Shown here piece after piece: positions 4,448 through 9,252 of a stretch of DNA of 16,176 nt. Position 1 is the stretch's first letter, and every line of letters starts with the position of its first letter. The position numbers and the translations under genes were made by a program. The stretch comes from Chloroflexota bacterium (GTDB lineage: Bacteria > Chloroflexota > Dehalococcoidia > JACQGW01): contig JACQGW010000282.1 of NCBI GenBank assembly GCA_016199325.1, positions 1 through 16,176 on the forward strand, read 5' to 3'. Below the pieces are notes generated by a model. That model was given only the letters and a program-made list of their open reading frames with translations. It was not told the origin of the DNA and searched no databases.

Positions 4448-4476
4448 TTGCCGGAGCCCTCGGAGTCCAGTATAAT
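4448..4476 (+). promoter_or_regulatory. Promoter of the first fluoride-riboswitch operon
   Basis: TTGCCG (4448-4453), an exact 17-nt spacer and a perfect TATAAT (4471-4476). The predicted start is near 4483, immediately before the riboswitch aptamer. The spacing and elements closely parallel the promoter of the second riboswitch (16029-16057). Confidence 0.8.
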
Positions 4477-4483
4477 CCGGCTA

Positions 4484-4602
4484 GCGGCGATGGAGTCCGC
4501 CCGTGACGGCCTGTCCGCCCAAACCGCGCCGGGGTGATTGAAGCCCAGCCCGCTGATGGCTCCTGGCCTCGCTGAATGCAGTCGAGTCAGGGGCTTTTTC
4601 TT
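4484..4602 (+). ncRNA. Fluoride (crcB-type) riboswitch 1 with expression platform
   Basis: The conserved aptamer pieces are in order: GGCGATGGAGTC (4486-4497), CGCCCAAACCGC (4516-4527) and GCTGATGGCTCCTGG (4552-4566). P1 is GGAGTC with GGCTCC (4558-4563). The pseudoknot is GGCG (4486-4489) with CGCC (4516-4519). The imperfect second stem lies between ACCGC and CCCGCTGAT. These match the fluoride class as I recall it from the Thermotoga petrophila example. An 18-nt insertion (4498-4515) sits between P1 and the pseudoknot strand. The terminator re-uses the P1 3' strand, so ligand binding should turn expression on. It precedes the CPxC/CxxH protein gene, an unusual target with no fluoride exporter nearby. 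Confidence 0.88.
4558..4602 (+). terminator. Intrinsic terminator of riboswitch 1
   Basis: The outer stem GGCTCCTG (4558-4565) pairs with CAGGGGCT (4588-4595) over 8 bp including two G-U pairs. CTCG/CGAG and CTG/CAG continue it to an AATG loop, and TTTTTCTT follows (4595-4602). Its 5' arm is the 3' strand of aptamer stem P1, so the two folds exclude each other. Confidence 0.82.
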
Positions 4603-4647
4603 GTGCCAAAACGCAGGCGGATCGCAATCCTTGACAGCAGTTCACCC

Positions 4648-6117: not shown

Positions 6118-6133
6118 GGGGGCTGGAGGTTCT

Positions 6134-8731
6134 ATGGAATCAAGCGACCACACTTTGGCTATCAGACCGGAGATCAGGCGGCCGAGCAGGCCGGTTGGTC
6201 TGGTGGGCGTCAGACTCCTTGACGAGGCACTCATCGGCCGCGCCTGTCTACGCTGTGGGCGCATCTGGTATCCGGAGCGAACGTCATGCCTTGAATGCGG
6301 CGCCGCGCTCGCCGAGATGACTCGAACGGTTCATCGGCAGCACGTTGCGCTGGAGCTGAACGGCCTCGCGCGGTTCCGACGGGCCGGCGAGCCGCGCGGT
6401 GAGGTCGCAACGTTCGCCATCCTCGCGGTAGGCCTGACGTGGACTGAGCCGTGGGCCAGCCGTACACACACCTTGGCGCAGGTCGCCGGCCAGATCGTCA
6501 CGACCATCCTGGACCGCGGCGGTCTGCCTGTGCAGGACGACGGCGGCGGCCTCCTGGCGCTCTTCGGCGGCGGGACGACGGCGGCGGATGCCACGCTCGA
6601 CGCAGTTCGCGCTGCCGAGGTGCTTCGCCACCTCGCGGCAGGTCGGTCGCGCGTTCCGGGCGTCGTCGGACCGTCGATGCAGATCGGGCTGAACGTCGGC
6701 GAGCTGGCGGTGGACGGCGAAGCGGTCTGTGGAGCGGCGCTCGCCTTCACCCAGGCGCTGGCGGCAGCGGCGCTGCCGGCGGCACCGCTGGCGACGGCTT
6801 CCGTGTTGCGGCTCGCCGCCGGTGCCTACGATTTCGTCGGCGTCGGCGCCCGCGACGCGCTTGGCCGGCCCCTGGAGGAGCCGGCCTTCGCTCTGGTCGG
6901 GCCACGCCCGGCGATGTCGCACCTCCTGGTCGAGCGCCACGAGGGTCCGATGGTTGGGCGCCAGGCGGAGTGGAACCGGTTGACCCGCGCCTACCGGGAC
7001 GCCGCGACGGGCAACGGCCGTGTCGTCTGCCTCGTCGCCCCGCCGGGCCTCGGCAAGTCGAGGCTCATCGCGACGTTCCTCAACGGCCTGGGCCCGGTGG
7101 GTTGCGGCGGGCCCGGGTTGGTAGCGACCGGCTTTGGGGCCGCCTACGGCGGCGGTCCCAACTGGACGGTCCGTAGCCTACTGGGGCCGTTGCTCGGCGT
7201 CACACCGGCGGACGATCCCCTAGCCGCACGCGATCAGATCGCCGCGCGGCTGGTCGACTGGGGGATCGATGGTGAGGATGCCGAGCCGCTCGTCCTGGCG
7301 CTGACCGCGGCCGGCGAGCCTGCCTTGACGGCCGCGGCGATCGTTCGCCTGCTGTCCTGCCTGGCGGCCCGGAACGGCGGTCCGCCGGTGCTCGTCGTCG
7401 ACGACCTCCACTGGGCGGATGCCTCATCCCTGGCCGTGCTTCCCGCGCTGGTCCGCCGGCTCCGGGCTGAGCCGGCCATGGTCCTGCTCTCGTTCCGACC
7501 GTCCGCCGGGCGCCGGGTCGGCTGGGCGCTGGAGCTCGCCGACGACGTGATTCGGCTCCGCCCCCTTGGCGTCCGCTCCCGCCGAGCGCTGATCCAGCGT
7601 CGATCGTCGGGGCTCCCGCCGGCCGTTGAAGCAGAGCTGGCGGCCCGGAGCCGCGGCAATCCGCTCTACCTGGAGGAGGCTGTCGCGTTGCTCCACGACC
7701 GCGGTCTCCTCCGGCCGATGAGCGTCGATACCCCGGGCCCGCAGTCGATATCCCTCGACGGCGTGCCGTCGACGCTCCACGGCGTCATCCTTGCCCGGAT
7801 CGACCATCTCGCGCGCGACCGTCTGCCGGCCATCCGGCGAGCAGCCAGTGTTCTGGGCAACCTGGCCTGGGAACGCGACCGGGCGTTCGCCGATCTGGCA
7901 GCAATCGAGGCTCAGATTGGCGCCTGGCTCGACCGGCTTGAAACCGGGGCCTATGCCGATCGCGCCGAAATCGGTCTGTACCTCCACCGGCTGGAGCAGG
8001 TCGACGCCGAGCTCGTCCTCACCTCAATGCTCCTGGGACGGCCCCGACCGCGGCATCGCCGGCTCGCCGCCGCCATCGATCGGCTGTACGCTGGGAGCTG
8101 GGAGGAGCGACTGCGATTGCTAACGGCGGCCTGGCGGCGAACGGGCAACGCCGCCGGGATCGGCTACCAGGCATACCAGGCGGCACAGAAGGCCGACCTG
8201 CTTGGCCGGCCCGCCATCGCCGCTCGCTTCTACGCCCTGGCGCTCCGGGCGGGGGAACTGGACCGGTACAGTCGGTCCCATCTGCTCCGCCGACTGGCGG
8301 CTTGCGAGCGGGCCTCGGGCCGGGCCGTGCAGGCGATGGCCCGGTATCGGGCCATCGCGCGTGAGGTGGCGTCGCCGAACGAGCGTCTCGACGCACTGCT
8401 GGCCCTGGCCGAGCTCGCGTCTGCCGGTGGCAAGATCACGGCGGCTCGGCGCTCGCTGGCCCGTGCCCGAGCGATTGCCCCCCGGCCCGAGCCGGTCCGG
8501 CTGTTGACCGTTGCCGCGAGCGTGGCCATGGCTGCCGGCCGACTGAGCGAGGCCGGCAAGCTGGCAACCCTTGCCTGGGAGCGGTCTGCGGCGGACGGGC
8601 AACCGTGGGACCGGGCATCGGCCGCAGAGACGCTCGCCGCCATCGTCGCGGCCGGTGACGACCAATCCGCCGCGGCTTTCTGGCGGCTCCGGACGGCGGC
8701 CGAGCGCCCAACCCTGCGACTGGATACATGA
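6134..8731 (+). CDS. Zinc-ribbon / degenerate class III cyclase / AAA ATPase / TPR-like protein
   Basis: 865-aa multidomain regulator-like protein. An N-terminal zinc ribbon has C38xxC41 and C52xxC55. A class III nucleotide-cyclase fold follows (about 88-258). Its GGGLLALFGGG and IGLNVGEL segments are recognisable, but the metal-binding Asp of the usual ADxxGFT start is replaced (FAILAVGLTW), so it probably has no cyclase activity and may act as a sensor. A STAND-type ATPase domain begins at VGRQAEW (274-280), with Walker A APPGLGKS (302-309) and Walker B VLVVDDLHWAD (419-429). The C-terminal 250 residues are Ala/Arg-rich helical repeats resembling TPRs. The start is ATG 6134 with GGAGG 4 nt upstream; an earlier in-frame start would overlap the previous gene. 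It lies in the riboswitch 1 operon. The target of its output is unknown. Confidence 0.8.
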   Translation: MESSDHTLAIRPEIRRPSRPVGLVGVRLLDEALIGRACLRCGRIWYPERTSCLECGAALAEMTRTVHRQHVALELNGLARFRRAGEPRGEVATFAILAVGLTWTEPWASRTHTLAQVAGQIVTTILDRGGLPVQDDGGGLLALFGGGTTAADATLDAVRAAEVLRHLAAGRSRVPGVVGPSMQIGLNVGELAVDGEAVCGAALAFTQALAAAALPAAPLATASVLRLAAGAYDFVGVGARDALGRPLEEPAFALVGPRPAMSHLLVERHEGPMVGRQAEWNRLTRAYRDAATGNGRVVCLVAPPGLGKSRLIATFLNGLGPVGCGGPGLVATGFGAAYGGGPNWTVRSLLGPLLGVTPADDPLAARDQIAARLVDWGIDGEDAEPLVLALTAAGEPALTAAAIVRLLSCLAARNGGPPVLVVDDLHWADASSLAVLPALVRRLRAEPAMVLLSFRPSAGRRVGWALELADDVIRLRPLGVRSRRALIQRRSSGLPPAVEAELAARSRGNPLYLEEAVALLHDRGLLRPMSVDTPGPQSISLDGVPSTLHGVILARIDHLARDRLPAIRRAASVLGNLAWERDRAFADLAAIEAQIGAWLDRLETGAYADRAEIGLYLHRLEQVDAELVLTSMLLGRPRPRHRRLAAAIDRLYAGSWEERLRLLTAAWRRTGNAAGIGYQAYQAAQKADLLGRPAIAARFYALALRAGELDRYSRSHLLRRLAACERASGRAVQAMARYRAIAREVASPNERLDALLALAELASAGGKITAARRSLARARAIAPRPEPVRLLTVAASVAMAAGRLSEAGKLATLAWERSAADGQPWDRASAAETLAAIVAAGDDQSAAAFWRLRTAAERPTLRLDT

Positions 8732-8778
8732 AGCCGGCCCCGATCCATCCGACGAACCGATAATAGTTGGAGACGAGT

Positions 8779-9252
8779 ATGCTCGACGTGACTGTCCCGG
8801 GCCTTGGCCAGTACCGGCTGGATCATCTCGTGCTCGACGTCAACGGCACGCTGGCCTGCGACGGCGCGCTGCTGCCCGGCGTCGCCAAGCGGCTGGCGGC
8901 GCTGCGGACGACCCTCGATATCCACCTGCTGAGCGCCGATACGCACGGCGGCCTCAGCCGAATTGCTGAGACGCTCCAGGTTCCCGCCGTTCGGCTCAAA
9001 GCAGACGAATCAGAGGTCGAGCAGAAGGCCGTCTTTGTCCGGCGCCTGGAACCGTCGCGAGTCGTCGCGATTGGCAACGGCGCCAACGACGTCGGGATGC
9101 TGCGAGAGGCTGCGCTCGGCATCGCCGTGCTGGGACCGGAGGGGCTGGCAATCGACGCCTTGGGCGCCGCCGACATCCTGGTCGGCAGCATCGCCGACGG
9201 ACTAGACTTGCTCATCCGCCCGCGGCGGCTGGTCGCGACGCTGCGGCGCTAA
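8779..9252 (+). CDS. Soluble P-type-ATPase-like HAD-family protein
   Basis: 157-aa HAD-fold protein resembling the 'soluble P-type ATPase' group (COG4087, from memory). Motif I is LDVNGTL (Asp19-Val-Asn-Gly-Thr). It has the nucleophile Asp, but the usual second Asp, the general acid of HAD phosphatases, is Asn. P-type ATPases also lack it, having DKTGT. Motif II is LLSADTHGG, and IGNGANDVGML is the motif III/IV equivalent of GDGxND. There is no membrane segment. It could be a slow phosphatase, a phosphorylated regulator or a binding protein. ATG 8779 is chosen because GGAG lies 6 nt upstream; an in-frame TTG at 8767 is less likely. It is the third gene after riboswitch 1, 47 nt after the AAA gene. 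No clear terminator follows. Confidence 0.8.
   Translation: MLDVTVPGLGQYRLDHLVLDVNGTLACDGALLPGVAKRLAALRTTLDIHLLSADTHGGLSRIAETLQVPAVRLKADESEVEQKAVFVRRLEPSRVVAIGNGANDVGMLREAALGIAVLGPEGLAIDALGAADILVGSIADGLDLLIRPRRLVATLRR

Follow-up and report, generated by a model that had tools for sequence, protein, structure and literature searches.

The DUF6062 protein family (PF19538) is, by the genomic context of its genes, a recurrent fluoride-regulon family and, as far as we found, an undescribed one. We came upon it in a 16,176-nucleotide (nt) stretch of DNA from a Chloroflexota bacterium (GCA_016199325.1, contig JACQGW010000282.1, positions 1 to 16,176; hereafter the window), where a fluoride riboswitch stands in front of three open reading frames (ORFs) on the forward strand, ORF1 (4648-6096), ORF2 (6134-8731) and ORF3 (8779-9252), spaced by 37 and 47 nt. 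The first of these encodes a double DUF6062 protein. Proteins encoded in this DNA are 67-82% identical to Chloroflexota proteins, in keeping with its assignment to that phylum. An earlier note on this DNA held that none of the three is a known fluoride exporter, and this stands; the riboswitch and its exclusive terminator precede all three genes. On balance, we favor the view that the operon is fluoride-induced and that DUF6062 proteins serve as zinc-stapled helical adaptors of a nucleoside triphosphatase (NTPase) machine.

A scan of the whole window against all Rfam families (cmscan) placed aptamer 1 of the fluoride riboswitch class RF01734 at 4477-4572 (+), with 30.2 bits and an E-value of 5.2e-5 over the entire model (1-64 of 64). 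The match is thus significant over its full length, though under the gathering score of 34 bits, which is a curated listing threshold and not a structural feature. A second RF01734 match on the reverse strand (16015-15925; 28.0 bits, E 2.8e-4, model 1-64) likewise falls below that score. Both copies possess the P1 stem (GGCG/CGCC) and the long-range pseudoknot, which in aptamer 1 is formed intact by GGAGU with GCUCC, and both retain the core letters, with long GC-rich stretches inserted between P1 and the second stem. These insertions probably lower both scores. Matches in the window to p27_CRE, mir-1913 and sR53 were taken as chance, all being far under their gathering scores.

In an alignment of 30 aptamers, two from the window and 28 from related loci, nine P1 and pseudoknot pairs (five of them in the pseudoknot) were 97.8% standard. 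Two-sided changes occurred in 36 cells of these pairs, against a shuffled mean of 12.7 and with none of 500 shuffles as high; when the partner was slid by 1-3 columns as a control, at most one two-sided change was left. Behind aptamer 1, a hairpin at 4558-4595 followed by a U-tract (terminator 4558-4600, +) folds with -23.2 kcal/mol, a value equalled by 1 of 200 shuffles (z -3.6). Because the pseudoknot strand 4559-4563 is part of the 5' arm of this hairpin, terminator and aptamer pseudoknot are mutually exclusive, as in a fluoride-ON switch. A consensus scan found a sigma-70-like promoter, TTGCCG-17-TATAAT, at 4448-4476 (+; 10 of 12 matches), ending directly before the aptamer; it is the only such site in 4290-9700, where shuffled sequences gave 0.3. 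A pattern scan of 4290-9700 listed no terminator on the + strand, to which we attach little weight since it also missed the hairpin 4558-4595. The conserved aptamer pieces and the exclusive terminator described in the earlier note are consequently both borne out.

Taken at face value, 30.2 and 28.0 bits against 34 could mean that the aptamers are decayed or not specific for fluoride. We consider this highly improbable, given the intact P1 and pseudoknot with compensatory changes across relatives, the strong exclusive terminator of copy 1, and the similar hairpin and known fluoride genes that follow copy 2; moreover, 40 of the 128 Chloroflexota genomes with an RF01734 match likewise have none over the cut-off. 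Induction of 4448-9252 by fluoride would follow from the known riboswitch class, and the sequence displays the corresponding logic: in the absence of fluoride, the RNA should fold the 4558-4595 terminator and transcription should stop; binding of fluoride and Mg should close the pseudoknot via 4559-4563, block the terminator and allow ORF1-3 to be transcribed.

ORF1 (482 residues) matches DUF6062 with 57 bits against a cut-off of 27, and a purpose-built profile resolves two copies of the domain at residues 1-206 and 320-470. Its four CxxC...CxxH half-site pairs lie at residues 25/63, 131/168, 233/270 and 362/397, with start-to-start distances of 38, 37, 37 and 35 (about 37-38 in the family). 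The four-module CPxC/CxxH protein that had been predicted here was hence seen correctly, and it can now be identified as a tandem DUF6062 protein. At least two such sites are present in 177 of the 192 DUF6062 genes surveyed below vs. 1 of 1417 other frames, and the spacing is 37-38 in 340 of 408 sites. A single-domain DUF6062 protein from an Aerophobetes metagenome-assembled genome (MAG; locus L003) gave a confident all-helical model (pLDDT 86.7, pTM 0.80) with its four Cys/His motifs at helix starts, as would be expected of metal-stapled helices; in the ORF1 model, the first domain scores >90 in most ten-residue blocks, with a weaker remainder (mean 74.4). Sequence searches returned no relative of DUF6062 in the PDB. 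A KHD[YF]R motif shared by several DUF6062 proteins does not distinguish the fluoride-linked members, being present in 18 of the 76 linked and 32 of the 116 unlinked ones (p 0.62).

Relatives of ORF1 confirmed by tblastn in genome contigs were few (5 loci). In three of them RF01734 lies directly before DUF6062, with scores of 55.1 bits in a Rokubacteria MAG (L002), 50.4 in the Aerophobetes MAG (L003) and 47.8 in a Thermotogota MAG (L004); at L005, the ORF1 match covers 57 residues only, and no riboswitch was found in that genome. We then turned to the phyla named after those of the seed MAGs, in which 100 of 400 Chloroflexota, 46 of 103 Thermotogota and 17 of 95 Methylomirabilota genomes were PF19538-positive. 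All 163 were searched for RF01734 with more sensitive filters, and a match (E<=0.01) was present in 53 of the 100 Chloroflexota and in 51 of the 63 other genomes. Merging of domain hits yielded 192 DUF6062 genes (Chloroflexota 121, Thermotogota 49, Methylomirabilota 22). A riboswitch lies directly upstream, that is, <600 nt away on the same strand, of 45 of these 192: 19/121 in Chloroflexota, 14/49 in Thermotogota and 12/22 in Methylomirabilota. Uniform placement, with genome sizes of 2.1 or 4.0 Mb assumed, would give about 0.014, 0.009 and 0.002 such genes in these three phyla, about 0.025 in all, and the three other orientations within 600 nt account for 3 DUF6062 genes altogether. With the seed genomes G002 and G004 excluded, 43 direct genes remain. 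The count rests on domain coordinates and misses genes with a long N-terminus, such as a dynamin fusion 75 nt behind a riboswitch in L069. A riboswitch occurs within 20 kb of 76 of the 192 genes, and the most strongly linked are Chloroflexota frames of at least 380 residues, which resemble ORF1 (11/25 direct, 19/25 within 20 kb). Genome-level co-occurrence alone is weak, with at least 40 of the 100 Chloroflexota DUF6062 genomes holding a riboswitch (p 0.06 among the 150 matches listed); the signal is in position, not in presence.

A regular-expression search for missed riboswitches proved too strict, recovering 11 of the 45 known cases, and was superseded by a model of the 30 aligned aptamers, which was applied to the window and to loci that mostly carry unlinked DUF6062 genes, 133 sources in all. 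This model added one clear direct case (L231, 35 bits) at a locus previously counted as near, and a few weak matches elsewhere. In a quick tree of 190 DUF6062 domains (3 of 193 were too short; some branches are long), the direct label needs 19 changes, against 39.8 when shuffled, and at least 10 of them are forced by starred branches; the riboswitch-DUF6062 link was therefore apparently gained or lost several times.

These data bear on the possibility that DUF6062, ORF2 and ORF3 are mere passengers of variable fluoride islands that carry unrelated genes. Such islands do exist, with up to 10 riboswitch matches on one G121 contig and many gene orders, and most DUF6062 genes are unlinked. Against this speak the direct position, with different partners, in all three phyla surveyed and at the Aerophobetes locus, the repeated changes on the tree, and the finding that the riboswitch before DUF6062 is the only one found in 24 of 45 genomes (Chloroflexota 5/19, Thermotogota 10/14, Methylomirabilota 9/12). 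We therefore regard the passenger explanation as improbable for the set, although ORF2 taken by itself could be a passenger gene. The survey of co-occurrence with RF01734 supports the undescribed fluoride-response function suggested for this operon strongly for ORF1, partly for ORF3 and not for ORF2.

We mapped 20 Chloroflexota loci and 20 of the other two phyla, chosen for their riboswitches and not a random sample, with a simple frame picker that returns some false frames. The typical order in Methylomirabilota is riboswitch-DUF6062-CPA-USP (a CPA antiporter and a universal stress protein); in Thermotogota and part of the Chloroflexota it is riboswitch-DUF6062-MoxR-DUF58, followed by one more gene (DUF4129 in L081, L079 and the cluster of L083). 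For 91 of the 192 genes (54 linked, 37 unlinked), the sequence extended by 1 kb or more on the downstream side, and in these we counted same-strand partners up to 3 kb behind DUF6062. Linked genes were accompanied by CPA (7/14) and USP (6/14) in Methylomirabilota, by MoxR (8/13) and DUF58 (8/13) in Thermotogota, and by MoxR (5/27), DUF58 (5/27) and MFS (4/27) in Chloroflexota; among the 37 unlinked genes, a single MoxR was the only one of these partners, a contrast favored by the mostly shorter downstream stretches of unlinked genes. MoxR-DUF58 operons occur near fluoride riboswitches in L004, L160-L165, L168, L076, L081, L082 and L085, usually behind DUF6062; L070 and L152 have them after a riboswitch with no intervening DUF6062 gene.

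Four island proteins fuse a dynamin-like GTPase domain (Dynamin_N) to DUF6062, namely L069:9209-11074(-), L072:11227-13728(-), L080:13094-15145(+) and L088:16432-18156(-). Their DUF6062 part is over the Pfam cut-off in two and scores 110.7 and 92.3 bits with a profile of A4 in the other two, and two of the four fusion genes lie 75-77 nt behind a riboswitch. Dynamin-like tblastn matches adjoin DUF6062 in the Methylomirabilota loci L109, L113 and L156 (the last by Pfam as well); no dynamin domain was present in ten other long DUF6062 proteins scanned. Further genes, each present in some of the Chloroflexota islands, encode CPA antiporters and MFS proteins (67-74% and mostly 57-74% identical, respectively, to those of the window), USPs, CrcB, enolase, and MutS-like and Mrp/complex I-like proteins. 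Divergent back-to-back riboswitches <400 nt apart were seen in L069, L072, L073, L074, L079, L080 and L084, and 12 back-to-back pairs were counted in DUF6062-bearing Chloroflexota genomes. In one Methylomirabilota fluoride island, a Pup-ligase-like frame (L151:5749-6156(-); PF03136, 121.9 bits) stands beside DUF6062.

Fusions and gene order favor a DUF6062 protein that acts together with a P-loop NTPase, and the antiporter, dynamin-like and DUF58/DUF4129 partners favor a site of action on the membrane side. An alternative, close to the metalloprotein idea of the earlier note, is that DUF6062 is a metal-homeostasis or thiol/redox protein. When fluoride upsets divalent cations, its Cys3His sites would then act as a buffer or sensor of zinc or would signal damage to metal sites. 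The paired CxxC/CxxH sites would suit this function. CoxD is a MoxR-like AAA+ ATPase. It serves metal cluster assembly according to the accessible part of one report (PMC3471820), and a disturbance of divalent metals under fluoride is described in the portion available of another (PMC11139923). Sensing or repair of damaged metalloproteins is possible, and the MoxR neighbors are mildly compatible with it. Nevertheless, the narrow 37-38 spacing within a confident helical domain looks structural, and the alternative leaves the dynamin fusions and antiporter operons unexplained, which point to membrane or ion homeostasis rather than to metalloprotein repair. We rate it as rather unlikely.

Several observations weigh against the adaptor reading, in addition to the aptamer scores below the gathering score and the length bias of the partner count. 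For 116 of the 192 DUF6062 genes, no RF01734 match lies closer than 20 kb, and at unlinked genes the 30-aptamer model added weak candidates only (L171 and L232, about 21 bits); DUF6062 is therefore not solely a fluoride family. In the Chloroflexi locus L001 (G001), the sole riboswitch is not at DUF6062 and precedes, by eye, a CrcB-like frame. Fold searches with the double and the single model gave no usable match in the PDB. In the mapped islands, ORF2 is without a counterpart except for the AAA part of an L084 protein (29%). Finally, we infer the zinc, the adaptor role and the contact with an NTPase from motifs, fusions and gene order.

With these points in mind, our adaptor model can be put as follows. 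Each DUF6062 domain would be soluble and entirely helical, stabilized by two Cys3His sites that bind a metal, probably Zn. As adaptor or regulator, it would place an NTP-driven machine at the membrane or on its clients during stress by fluoride or hydrogen fluoride; candidate machines are MoxR-DUF58, the dynamin-like GTPase or, in the window, perhaps the STAND-type ATPase ORF2. The system would work beside the antiporter, pyrophosphatase and USPs of the companion operon, and ORF3 may be an accessory protein with a phosphatase fold. Together with Mg, Al or Be, fluoride forms phosphate mimics, by which P-loop NTPases and phospho-Asp enzymes become locked together with their nucleotide. It is a long shot that the riboswitch-linked set (DUF6062, the MoxR, dynamin-like and STAND NTPases, and the stand-alone P-domain) is a system that detects or frees such fluoride-jammed enzymes, with ORF3 as decoy or sensor and DUF6062 as adaptor; if true, it would be a third arm of resistance beside export and target replacement.

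ORF2 (865 residues, +) combines a zinc-ribbon-like N-terminus, a cyclase-like region, a STAND-type AAA_16 ATPase and a long C-terminal part. The ATPase domain scores 73.4 bits against a cut-off of 32.6 and has the Walker motifs APPGLGKS and LVVDD. Of the zinc-ribbon/degenerate-cyclase/AAA/TPR architecture proposed before, it is the part that holds over its cut-off; the zinc ribbon is weak (zf-ChsH2, 19.2 bits, under 23.2), the cyclase-like region has no PF00211 match, and the C-terminal part has no Pfam match. Similarity to the TOMM kinase/cyclase TIGR03903 (87 bits) is far under the curated 705.75. ORF2 resembles AAA_16/cyclase STAND-type proteins in its domain order and differs from them by its zinc-ribbon-like start and by the cyclase-like region without PF00211, which together with PF13191 is present in 13 of 13 other ORF2 homologues listed. 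In L069, a NACHT protein occupies an ORF2-like slot after DUF6062.

ORF3 (157 residues, +) is a soluble HAD protein (maximum 19-residue hydropathy 1.56) like the P-domain of P-type ATPases, with the motifs DVNGT, T, K and GNGAND. It scores 32.9 bits against TIGR01494, under the NCBIfam cut-off of 62.3, and the best-scoring solved structures for its profile are P-type ATPases (CopA-type 2voy, E 6e-9). The description as a soluble P-type-ATPase-like HAD protein is thereby upheld: ORF3 shares the core D..T..K..GxGxND with the CopA-type P-domains 2voy and 2b8e, lacks the actuator, nucleotide and membrane domains, and carries DVNGT instead of DKTGT, so that the resemblance does not extend beyond the P-domain. 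Of 400 Chloroflexota genomes, 67 encode homologues. Of 65 tested (the 3 weakest of 68 listed hits were dropped), at least 12 have a riboswitch within 20 kb, and 7 are close to DUF6062; the riboswitch list is complete solely for the 100 DUF6062 genomes, and 12/65 is therefore a lower bound. The profile rows (A3) used in this search were drawn from fluoride islands, whose top scores thus arise by construction. One homologue lies 104 nt behind a riboswitch in G121 and another 243 nt behind a weak riboswitch in G158.

ORF3 might simply be one more HAD phosphatase linked to a riboswitch, compensating for phosphoryl-transfer enzymes that are inhibited, a reading that we judge to fall just short of an even chance. 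The phospho-Asp, Thr, Lys and GNGxND residues are invariant in 8 of 8 aligned sequences, in favor of this reading. HAD phosphatases usually carry a general-acid Asp two residues after the nucleophile. All 8 sequences have Asn at this position (DxNGT), which argues against the reading, as does the primacy of P-type ATPases among the matching structures. HAD genes at fluoride riboswitches are already in print, as stated in the accessible part of PMC11139923, and this speaks for it. The fluoride operon of Enterobacter cloacae has a gene of 261 bp, orf05249, with the annotation divalent cation transporting ATPase, which is perhaps comparable to ORF3 (PMC5533749, accessible part).

The second riboswitch of the window (15925-16015, -) heads a reverse-strand operon (11414-16015) that is convergent to ilvD. 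A promoter-like site (16057-16029, 9/12 matches) precedes the aptamer, and a hairpin with U-tract (15901-15939, -) follows it in the layout of copy 1, the 5' arm again containing the pseudoknot strand; folding of 15870-15945, a stretch longer than the hairpin, was not better than shuffles (z -0.5, 54/200). The operon encodes a CPA/Na+-H+ exchanger (14611-15897; PF00999, 135.3 bits), an MFS transporter (13368-14564; PF07690, 76.7 bits), an inorganic pyrophosphatase (12826-13347; PF00719, 199.9 bits) and three USPs (12373-12777, 11890-12339 and 11414-11854; PF00582, 85-107 bits). The listed TTG start of the exchanger gene falls within the U-tract, and GTG at 15813 is the likelier start. Antiporter and pyrophosphatase genes are among those most often linked to fluoride riboswitches in the portion available of PMC11139923, and the E. 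cloacae fluoride operon includes USP and pyrophosphatase genes (PMC5533749, in its accessible part). An MFS protein 47% identical to that of the window is encoded at L005:8718-9986(+), on a contig labelled Desulfovibrio from a genome in which no riboswitch was found. Divergent from the riboswitch 1 operon, a heavy-metal P-type ATPase with HMA_2 (1726-3975, -) is preceded by a DUF1490 gene (3959-4291, -).

Described fluoride resistance consists mainly of export, replacement of inhibited enzymes and pH repair. DUF6062 is a strong candidate for a further principle because it lies directly behind the riboswitch in three phyla and at a fourth-phylum locus, as the sole riboswitch target found in half of the genomes; it looks like an overlooked part of bacterial fluoride survival. 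PF19538 gives a dark family of proteins a name and a testable handle, fluoride stress becomes connected with MoxR-DUF58 and a dynamin-like GTPase, and DUF6062 could aid work on fluoride-tolerant hosts for defluorination. No mention of DUF6062 was found in the literature searched, nor, in the titles and abstract beginnings of the best-ranked papers, a link of the fluoride riboswitch to DUF6062, MoxR or dynamin-like proteins; an unnamed mention in the tables of Baker 2012 is possible. Riboswitch links to HAD, antiporter, pyrophosphatase, enolase, USP, mutS and formate hydrogenlyase genes are already known, including from the accessible parts of PMC11139923 and PMC5533749.

Set beside the Pfam family, which is without known function, ORF1 is a tandem member with two copies of the domain. 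The Enterobacter cloacae FRM operon, as far as the accessible part of its description goes (PMC5533749), resembles the window in being a riboswitch-controlled multigene operon with pyrophosphatase, USP and a short cation-transporting ATPase gene; unlike the window, it has crcB, eno and gpmA, and no DUF6062 is named there. With RF01734 (crcB motif) operons at large, the window shares the aptamer, the pseudoknot and the overlapping terminator. Its second operon is alike in gene content as well, with antiporter, pyrophosphatase and USP, whereas its first operon departs from them in being led by DUF6062 in place of an exporter, enolase, pyrophosphatase or antiporter.

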